Assembly (NCBI GenBank): GCA_913056125.1
Contig: CAJXNC010000006.1
Span: 1 to 64,000 of the forward strand
Direction: 5' to 3'
From: an uncultured Altererythrobacter sp.
GTDB taxonomy: Bacteria; Pseudomonadota; Alphaproteobacteria; Sphingomonadales; Sphingomonadaceae
DNA length: 64,000 bases
Of this stretch, positions 37,854-50,252 are shown one piece after another. A program made the translations under genes and the position numbers. The notes below the pieces were generated by a model. That model was not told where the DNA came from and searched no databases. It worked only from the letters and a program-made list of their open reading frames with translations. Position 1 is the stretch's first letter; each line of letters starts with the position of its first letter.

Positions 37854-37881
37854 TTGCAGAACGGCCCGCGTCTGTTAAGAC
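37854..37881 (+). promoter_or_regulatory. Candidate promoter for the trpS leader
   Basis: TTGCAG (37854-37859) and TAAGAC (37876-37881) are spaced by 16 bases. The predicted transcript start falls at or a few bases before the ATG at 37889, so the leader peptide message could be leaderless. Both boxes match sigma-70 consensus only loosely. Confidence 0.35.
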
Positions 37882-37888
37882 GTCCCGC

Positions 37889-37981
37889 ATGACCAAGGGT
37901 TTTCTCTTCTCTGGCGCTGGCCCCCTGCGTTTCGCGGTGCGTGGCCGGGCGGCCTGGTTCTGGTCGGGCTGCTCCAAGTAA
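37889..37981 (+). CDS. Candidate Trp-codon leader peptide upstream of trpS
   Basis: 30-residue frame ending Ala-Ala-Trp-Phe-Trp-Ser-Gly-Cys-Ser-Lys, with Trp codons at positions 23 and 25 (bases 37955-37957 and 37961-37963). It sits 65 bases before the gene for tryptophanyl-tRNA synthetase and is followed by hairpins, the layout of a ribosome-mediated attenuation leader. No ribosome site is evident, but a promoter placed to give a leaderless message is possible, as known for rhizobial trpL. Could be a chance frame; Trp pairs in a 30-codon frame before this specific gene argue otherwise. Confidence 0.5.
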   Translation: MTKGFLFSGAGPLRFAVRGRAAWFWSGCSK

Positions 37982-37990
37982 GAGCGCCTT

Positions 37991-38011
37991 TTGCCCGGGC
38001 CTGACGGGCAA
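37991..38011 (+). terminator. Hairpin in the trpS leader (possible attenuator)
   Basis: Perfect 7-bp stem TTGCCCG / CGGGCAA (37991-37997 with 38005-38011) and a 7-base loop, followed by a pyrimidine-rich but not U-only stretch. An alternative pairing of GTCGGGC (37963-37969, overlapping the second Trp codon) with GCCTGAC (37999-38005) would disrupt it; another small hairpin can form at 37967-37988. Regulation could act on transcription or on trpS translation. Confidence 0.4.
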
Positions 38012-38046
38012 CCCTCCCGTTTCCAGATTTCAGAAAGAGAATATTC

Positions 38047-39090
38047 ATGCGCGTTGTTTCCGGCATCCAGCCAACCGGCAAGCCCCATCTCGGCAACTAC
38101 CTTGGCGCCATCCGCAATTACGTGAAGCTGCAGGACGAGGCCGTGGCCGCAGGCGGCGAATGCCTGATCTTCCTGGCCGACCTCCACGCCATTTCCATGC
38201 CGCACGACCCGAAGGAACTGCATGCGAGCACGCTCGAGCTGGTCGCCACCTTGGTCGCCTGCGGCGTCGATCCGAACAAGGCGATCCTGTTCAACCAGGC
38301 GCAGGTTCCCGCCCATGCCGAGCTGCAATGGCTGCTCAACGGTACCGCGCGGATGGGCTGGCTCAACCGCATGACGCAGTTCAAGGACAAAAGCGGCAAG
38401 AACCGCGAAGGCGCCAGCGTCGCCCTGTTCACCTACCCTGTGCTGCAGGCAGCCGACGTTCTGCTCTACCAGGCCACGCATGTGCCGGTTGGCGAGGACC
38501 AGAAGCAGCATCTCGAGCTGGCACGCGACATCGCGCAGAAGTTCAACATGGATTTCGTGCCCGGCTATGGCGACGAGAAGGACCCGAAGCCCGGCGTCTT
38601 CACCCTGCCCGATCCGATCATCCCGCCTGAAGCGGCGCGCATCATGAGCCTTCGCGACGGATCGGCAAAGATGAGCAAGTCCGATCCGTCGGAGATGAGC
38701 CGCATCAACCTCTCGGACGAGGCGGACGAGATGGCCAAGAAGGTCAAGAAGGCCAGGACCGATCCCGAACCGCTGCCTTCCGAACTGGAAGGGCTGGAGG
38801 ACCGGCCCGAAGCGCTCAACCTCGTCACCATCTATGCTGCCTTGGCACAGACGACTCCCGACAAGGTACTGGGTGATTTTGGGGGGCAGGGTTTCGGCGT
38901 GTTCAAGCCCGCGCTGGCCGAACTGATGGTCGAGACGCTCGGCCCCATCCGCGATCGTTTCGTCGAGTTGAAGGCCGATCGCGAGGCCCTCGACGCGATC
39001 CTGGCGCGCGGCGCCTACCAGGCACGCGAAATCGGAATTCCCACGCTCGCCGCAGCCTACAAGGCGCTCGGACTGGTGCGTGGCCGCTAA
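38047..39090 (+). CDS. trpS: Tryptophanyl-tRNA synthetase
   Basis: 347 residues. Class I enzyme that charges tRNA-Trp. The N-terminal signature GIQPTGKPHLGNYLGAI holds the HIGH-type motif, GEDQKQHLELARDIA the dimer-interface helix, and KMSKS is at about residues 208-212. A GAAAGAGAA site precedes the start. Preceded by the candidate Trp leader; the stop lies about 160 bases before the next gene. Confidence 0.97.
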   Translation: MRVVSGIQPTGKPHLGNYLGAIRNYVKLQDEAVAAGGECLIFLADLHAISMPHDPKELHASTLELVATLVACGVDPNKAILFNQAQVPAHAELQWLLNGTARMGWLNRMTQFKDKSGKNREGASVALFTYPVLQAADVLLYQATHVPVGEDQKQHLELARDIAQKFNMDFVPGYGDEKDPKPGVFTLPDPIIPPEAARIMSLRDGSAKMSKSDPSEMSRINLSDEADEMAKKVKKARTDPEPLPSELEGLEDRPEALNLVTIYAALAQTTPDKVLGDFGGQGFGVFKPALAELMVETLGPIRDRFVELKADREALDAILARGAYQAREIGIPTLAAAYKALGLVRGR

Positions 39091-50221: not shown

Positions 50222-50232
50222 GCGCGCTTTCC

Positions 50233-50252
50233 GGCGCACATGCGCCGTTTTT
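50233..50252 (+). terminator. Hairpin plus U-run in the rpsT leader
   Basis: Stem GGCGCA / TGCGCC (50233-50246, effectively GGCGC with an ACAT loop) followed by GTTTTTC and then another T-run. It lies downstream of the candidate promoter and upstream of rpsT, so it may attenuate S20 synthesis, or simply terminate mutM readthrough. Confidence 0.5.

Follow-up and report, generated by a model that had tools for sequence, protein, structure and literature searches.

A conserved Trp-codon leader upstream of trpS in sphingomonads, a probable cis-acting ribosomal sensor of tryptophan

The leader of the E. coli trp operon is led by an SD motif and carries Trp codons a few codons before its stop, with alternative hairpins and a U-tract terminator beyond. 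For a tryptophanyl-tRNA synthetase gene, the auxiliary trpS of Streptomyces, ribosome-mediated transcriptional attenuation was reportedly described by Vecchione and Sello in 2010. A candidate attenuator has also been predicted upstream of trpS2 of S. avermitilis (PMC1262725), and that paper describes the Streptomyces leaders as classical attenuators, those of the trp operon having GC-rich terminators with poly-U. In Caulobacter crescentus, ribosome profiling revealed a small CDS on the trpS mRNA, which is regarded there as a putative leader peptide (PMC4117421). In Sinorhizobium meliloti, trpL is described as having a transcript that starts at the ATG of an ORF with Trp codons and has functions in trans (PMC7298713); this leader has 14 codons, precedes trpE(G) and is followed by a terminator.

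The sphingomonad leader described here resembles these ribosome-sensing leaders and differs from a classical attenuator in the U-tract terminator. Like the E. coli leader it has its Trp codons shortly ahead of the stop codon and a hairpin farther on, whereas an SD lead, a U-tract terminator and alternative hairpins were not recognised as conserved. The likeness to Streptomyces is, on the account of the authors, leader attenuation of a gene for tryptophanyl-tRNA synthetase; in contrast to Streptomyces, neither a U-tract nor a conserved antiterminator was found, trpS is normally a single-copy gene (one match in nearly all genomes of the family), and the transcript looks leaderless. Caulobacter offers a small translated CDS on an alphaproteobacterial trpS mRNA, a likeness by description rather than by sequence. 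With rhizobial trpL the leader has in common the start at the ATG, which is suggested here by promoter geometry alone, but the target is trpS, the ORF has 26-38 codons and a terminator is not recognisable. An earlier note on this DNA had held that attenuation of trpS through a Trp-codon leader is poorly described in this group. Leaders of trpS do have precedents, predicted or reported in Streptomyces and seen by ribosome profiling in Caulobacter; for sphingomonads no such trpS leader was found in the open-access literature.

The window, that is, the whole 64-kb stretch of DNA that was analysed, contains the genes secB, murJ and trpS and a gene for a DUF4136 protein around the leader. The 222 nt between murJ (stop codon 37822-37824) and trpS (ATG 38047) hold a candidate promoter, the leader ORF and then a hairpin at 37991-38011. 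The trpS product is a true tryptophan--tRNA ligase (TIGR00233, 301.8 bits at a cut-off of 176.75). The leader ORF begins with the ATG at 37889, reads MTKGFLFSGAGPLRFAVRGRAAWFWSGCSK and ends with the stop codon at 37979-37981, and the trpS start codon lies 65 nt beyond this stop. The 30-codon frame with Trp codons at positions 23 and 25 upstream of trpS, as the earlier note had it, is correct in coordinates, frame and identity of the downstream gene. No Rfam family, T-box included, matched at its gathering score anywhere in the window. The features are:

37854..37859, plus strand, candidate -35 element TTGCAG, a consensus match only; TTGC(A/C)-like in close relatives at the equivalent position
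37873..37881, plus strand, candidate extended -10 element, TG-T-TAAGAC; TG.TA bases invariant in 23 loci
37889..37981, plus strand, leader ORF of 30 codons, with a probably leaderless transcript as its template for translation; the homologous frame is present in 41 distinct leaders
37946..37964, plus strand, nucleotide-conserved core over both Trp codons, CGGGCGGCCTGGCGATGGC in relatives; exact 19-mer in 14 of 27 representatives
37950..37966, plus strand, weak stem CGGCC / GGTCG formed locally around the Trp codons; of 26 representatives, 25 have 3-6 bp and one has 2 bp, counted without a null model
37955..37957, plus strand, Trp codon 23, the first of the pair, absent from some variants
37961..37963, plus strand, Trp codon 25, the invariant one according to the alignment of relatives
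37982..38046, plus strand, stretch from the leader stop to the trpS start, C-rich and G-poor in relatives
37991..38011, plus strand, post-stop hairpin TTGCCCG-loop-CGGGCAA, not followed by a U-tract; relatives retain it as a structure
38047..39090, plus strand, trpS, tryptophan--tRNA ligase; TIGR00233 above cut-off, PF00579

Relatives of the leader were sought upstream of trpS, which had a match in 192 of 199 genomes of the family; upstream regions were analysed for 30 and then another 80 of these 192 genomes, and 80 trpS loci were also taken from genome contigs. Frames with the pattern W.{0,2}W revealed, amid unrelated frames, 17 leaders with a stop 62-82 nt before trpS, most of which share RGRAAWRW or RGRAAWFW. 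One short-pattern search for the leader was uninformative, and further pattern and profile searches found additional variants. Together, 41 distinct leaders have the frame from the ATG through the conserved Trp codon, all of them before trpS. Statistics were based on 27 representatives with less than 80% leader identity; L199 was left out because its sequence does not differ from that of L058 once the leader begins, and the stem count in 26 representatives omits L114, which has no GGCC.

The Trp-codon leader upstream of trpS is real and more than a product of chance, as judged from the comparison of these sequences. The ATG, the TG.TA bases and the last Trp codon (TGG) are invariant columns in an alignment of 23 leader loci, while the early leader codons vary freely (41 leaders, 27 representatives), and the ORF length ranges from 26 to 38 codons. 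This is the conservation of Trp codons amid drifting codons that the earlier note had asked for. The conserved pattern, CGGGCGGCC-TGG-CGA-TGG-C, is kept at the nucleotide level, the rare CGA included: GGCGATGGC occurs in 23 of the 27 representatives, and the codons of the core are CGG (23/27), GCG (23/27), GCC (23/27), TGG (24/25), CGA (24/27) and TGG (26/26). Trp occupies the last-Trp column in 26 of 26 representatives; 25 have Arg at the preceding codon and 24 of these use CGA, whereas 12 trpS genes use it for only 5 of their 218 Arg codons. In 25 of 27 representatives a C follows the last TGG, even though the amino acid encoded there differs (R 11, L 10, P 3, and S, H and W one each). The retention of this C despite the varying residue, together with the codon invariance, points to a constraint at the nucleotide level that goes beyond the Trp codon.

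The core is not uniform. The clade of the window has TTC in place of CGA and a T instead of the C after the last TGG, and five of the 41 leaders (L007, L022, L162, L226, L229) have a single Trp codon. Several relatives have an insertion within the core; in L034, L124, L162 and L226 it lies between RGRAA and the last Trp. In L124, L162 and L226 the insertion contains a second GGGCGATGG block that is read in a different frame from the first GGGCGG block, perhaps the trace of an ancient partial duplication. L225 and L228 end with RAAWRWFW, with three Trp codons among the last five residues.

The leader is tied to trpS. A model called R1, based on sequence only and built from 23 aligned leader regions without trpS coding sequence, produced 38 matches with E <1e-10 in 397 genomes of the family, and 38 of 38 lie directly upstream of trpS; 19 of these are training rows, another matches a training row exactly once the leader begins, and 18 are new. 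The next two matches (27 and 25 bits) are located away from trpS. In 359 of the 397 genomes no strong match was found, which indicates that trpS does not need the leader. In 296 genomes of the order (E up to 1e-5) R1 had 11 matches, and in 289 genomes of the class (E up to 1e-4) two, all of them within the family of the window; outside this family neither sample contained a match, at E limits that were stricter there and with an order sample of unstated make-up. The restriction of the class-sample matches to the family may set the leader apart from the Caulobacter case. In other alphaproteobacteria, Trp-rich ORFs were found upstream of trpS at 9 of 68 loci, compared with 2.35 in mononucleotide shuffles, but no common motif was apparent in them, overlap with an upstream CDS could raise the count, and we base no claim on this excess. 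In the genome of the window, trpE was not among the R1 matches listed, and the 600 nt before the trpE match contain nothing that resembles the trpS leader. At this locus (L266, own genome C2:369644), a single frame containing WW begins 222 nt upstream of the trpE match, and trpE closely follows a coding frame that reads like the end of a peptidyl-prolyl isomerase.

The presence of the leader coincides with the placement of trpS behind murJ. Where murJ was detected, all 21 loci with the leader have 179-264 nt between murJ and trpS and all 123 loci without it have 0-143 nt, and no gap falls between 143 and 179 nt. The survey detected murJ in 144 of 153 upstream regions (L001-L073 and L111-L190, including some duplicates and more distant genera), a gap of 0 also denotes the lack of a stop before trpS, and the leader loci L022 and L142 are among the nine regions without murJ detection. 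As far as these regions tell, trpS is found either with its own putative promoter and the leader or close behind murJ without a leader. On a tree of 80 TrpS sequences, 24 of them with leader, leader presence needs at least 14 changes (mean of shuffled assignments 21.0, 0 of 500 as low), and the starred branches force six changes between presence and absence. Leader presence is thus patchy on this TrpS tree, on which losses are indistinguishable from transfers. L031, the tree neighbour of the TrpS of the window (88% identity), has no leader and a murJ-trpS gap of 19 nt.

A leaderless transcript is suggested by the spacing between the putative -10 element and the ATG. In the window, TTGCAG is followed by a spacer of 16 nt, the candidate -10 element TG-T-TAAGAC (hexamer 37876-37881), 7 nt and the ATG of the leader. 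A generic sigma-70 consensus scan listed no promoter between murJ and trpS, and the candidate promoter therefore rests on its conservation in relatives: a match to TG.T(A/T) or TG.CTA begins 15-18 nt upstream of the ATG in 37 of 41 leaders and is absent in four, the ATG at promoter distance having been chosen in leaders with several in-frame ATGs. This spacing agrees with the proposal of the earlier note that the promoter is placed for a transcript start at the ATG. The ORF 5' of the core is less structured than shuffled versions of it (mean z +0.89; significantly more folded in 0 of 41), as is expected for leaderless initiation. Against it stand SD-like 4-mers, which precede the ATG in 11 of 41 leaders.

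The second conserved element is the hairpin between the leader stop and trpS. The best uninterrupted stem in this region exceeds dinucleotide shuffles (mean z 1.76, Fisher p 2e-10, 12 of 27 at p<=0.05), while two control stretches gave mean z values of 0.39 and -0.31, and an energy-based hairpin test over 41 leaders with 12 shuffles each gave a mean z of -1.78. There are weak cases: in the energy test L233 and L226 have weaker hairpins than their shuffle means and L040 equals its own, and L114 and L139 are below the shuffle means in the test of uninterrupted stems. By plain folding energy the post-stop region lies slightly below shuffles (4 of 41 at p<=0.05; mean z -0.47), and a clear signal is confined to the two local hairpin tests. 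In 38 of 41 leaders, 23-49 nt separate the end of the hairpin from trpS. Its sequence differs between lineages, which indicates that the structure and not the sequence is kept.

Taken together, the conserved frame, the promoter geometry, the Trp codon, the core, the hairpin, the link to trpS and the pattern of presence and absence are established by sequence comparison. The occurrence of the Trp-codon frame only upstream of trpS, where it is kept together with a promoter, argues for a sensor of charged tRNA-Trp that acts through the ribosome, and we consider it probable that the leader is a cis-acting, ribosome-sensing Trp leader of trpS, a judgement that covers cis sensing of Trp by the ribosome and thus also applies to classical and translational attenuation. 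Transcription would start from a promoter between murJ and trpS at or beside the ATG of an ORF of 26-38 codons, which ribosomes would translate from a leaderless mRNA. Under a shortage of charged tRNA-Trp, the ribosome would slow down or stall at the conserved TGG, usually within TGG-CGA-TGG, near the end of the ORF. The stall would alter what becomes of the nascent RNA over the 60-100 nt ahead of trpS, where the conserved hairpin and its C-rich flanks lie, and as a result more trpS would be made.

The output is the least certain part of this scheme. Classical transcription attenuation, in which the hairpin is an intrinsic terminator and a stall at the Trp codons permits formation of a disrupting antiterminator, has in its favor Trp codons near the stop, a conserved post-stop hairpin and trpS as the target. 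It would predict a U-tract, but at least five T in the 8 nt 3' of the hairpin are found in only two of 41 leaders, with fewer in the other 39, although one of the former, L002 from the genus of the window, has five T of eight. This is weaker evidence than it would be in E. coli: in the window, strong stems with a U-run are no commoner than controls (three and one on the terminator side, two and two in control arrangements), so that the missing U-tract alone does not exclude termination, and U-tract terminators may be uncommon in this genome. A consensus terminator scan listed a single terminator-like site, inside murJ; the stem at 50232-50247, followed by TTTTT, is one good exception with a U-tract. 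The antiterminator is a further difficulty. A G-U-rich stem over the Trp codons (37947-37974) is present in the window, and only its weak inner part recurs in relatives; the window also allows GGCCGGGC (37944-37951) to be paired, as an alternative, with the 5' arm of the post-stop hairpin. Pairing was assessed for 14 combinations of the core, the 5' part of the leader, the region from the Trp codons to the hairpin, the hairpin arms, the trpS start and the whole downstream region. The region from the last Trp codon to the hairpin pairs with the 5' arm no better than shuffles do (mean z -0.15; 3 of 41 at p<=0.05), and the core slightly better (mean z -0.44; 0 of 41). The strongest shifts were those of the core and of the 5' part of the leader with the downstream region (-0.72 with 5 of 41 at p<=0.05, and -0.54 with 6 of 41), and such pairing was rejected as a switch, the shifts being too weak and unspecific. 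The folding energy from the last Trp codon past the stop has a mean z of -0.55 (4 of 41 at p<=0.05), and the fold of the whole leader of the window is no better than its shuffles (z -0.56). Simulated stalling raised the probability of the hairpin by more than 0.3 in 10 of 41 leaders and lowered it in one (four and one of the 27 representatives), which is the wrong direction, and the effect of the upstream RNA on the hairpin is not significant in comparison with shuffled upstream RNA (z +0.27, p 0.14). The folding tests with 41 leaders and 27 representatives thus revealed no conserved ribosome-controlled switch, and lineage-specific antiterminators may still exist. The expected U-tract is missing and the antiterminator test was negative, though not conclusive, and for these reasons the leader is not classed as a classical attenuator, a reading that we regard as unlikely. 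Of the two alternative hairpins proposed by the earlier note, both can be found in the window and the post-stop one is kept as a structure, but the pair is not supported as a conserved switch, and the doubt expressed there about the classical logic was apt.

Translational attenuation, with leader RNA that pairs with the trpS start region and is displaced by a stalled ribosome, appears quite improbable. The minimum-energy fold of the window does pair UUCUCUU of the leader with AAGAGAA before trpS, and upon removal of the upstream RNA the trpS start opens more than 1 kcal/mol easier in 18 of 41 leaders and harder in four. However, this easing is what the loss of any partner would give: in comparison with shuffled upstream RNA the release of the trpS start on stalling is gone (mean z 0.00, 27 representatives). 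Moreover, pairing with the start region has a mean z of +0.32 for the 5' part of the leader and -0.39 for the core (4 of 41 at p<=0.05), and of about +0.6 for the hairpin arms. A product that acts in trans, either an attenuated small RNA with the core as seed or a regulatory peptide, would have a precedent in rnTrpL and peTrpL of rhizobia, where rnTrpL has its 5' end at the ATG of trpL and functions in trans (PMC7298713), and it would fit a core that is kept beyond codon needs. We nevertheless give it little credence, as complements of the core of the window with at most three mismatches occur, besides the leader itself, at four sites of the genome on either strand (one for the reversed control), and the 38 of 38 strong matches before trpS favor a role in cis. 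Least probable of all is an arrest peptide of the TnaC kind, in which nascent RGRAAW rather than the charging of tRNA-Trp would stall the ribosome. RGRAA and the upstream residues RF do recur in many leaders with some synonymous drift (TTC nine and TTT five for F in the 27 representatives), but the insertions in L034, L124, L162 and L226 would shift RGRAA within the exit tunnel, contrary to a fixed distance, and the invariance of third positions points to a constraint on RNA or codons.

For the cis-acting sensor, Rho-dependent or another non-canonical termination perhaps fits better than a classical terminator and antiterminator, a preference that is based on the missing U-tract and the C-rich RNA; taken alone, a non-canonical output has, in our estimate, somewhat less than an even chance. 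The C/G ratio is 1.59 from the stop to trpS overall and 2.36 between the stop and the hairpin (27 representatives), and this composition, the one argument for an involvement of Rho, is compatible with it. It should be noted that the ratio is also 1.61 in the first 60 nt of trpS, and C-richness is therefore a lead rather than evidence. In addition, it is not evident how a ribosome that has stalled at the Trp codons could shield the C-rich stretch, which speaks against Rho. A more far-reaching proposal would be a new attenuator design for an aminoacyl-tRNA synthetase, with a leaderless ORF, the CGGGCGGCC-TGG-CGA-TGG-C core, the rare CGA beside the invariant Trp codon tuning the stall, and the decision on trpS taken without an intrinsic terminator, through Rho or through coupling of ribosome and polymerase near a hairpin that is conserved as structure only; as a whole, this is speculative and rather doubtful.

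If the probable sensor works as proposed, it would be a compact case of the control of a synthetase by codon-specific stalling, in a group for which the open-access literature yielded no such leader. It bears on attenuation without U-tract terminators and on leader ORFs that are themselves leaderless, and the 41 distinct leaders constitute a set for use by others. It also bears on the all-or-none presence of control in this family, where the same gene would be equipped with a leader or left without it depending on the placement of trpS behind murJ.
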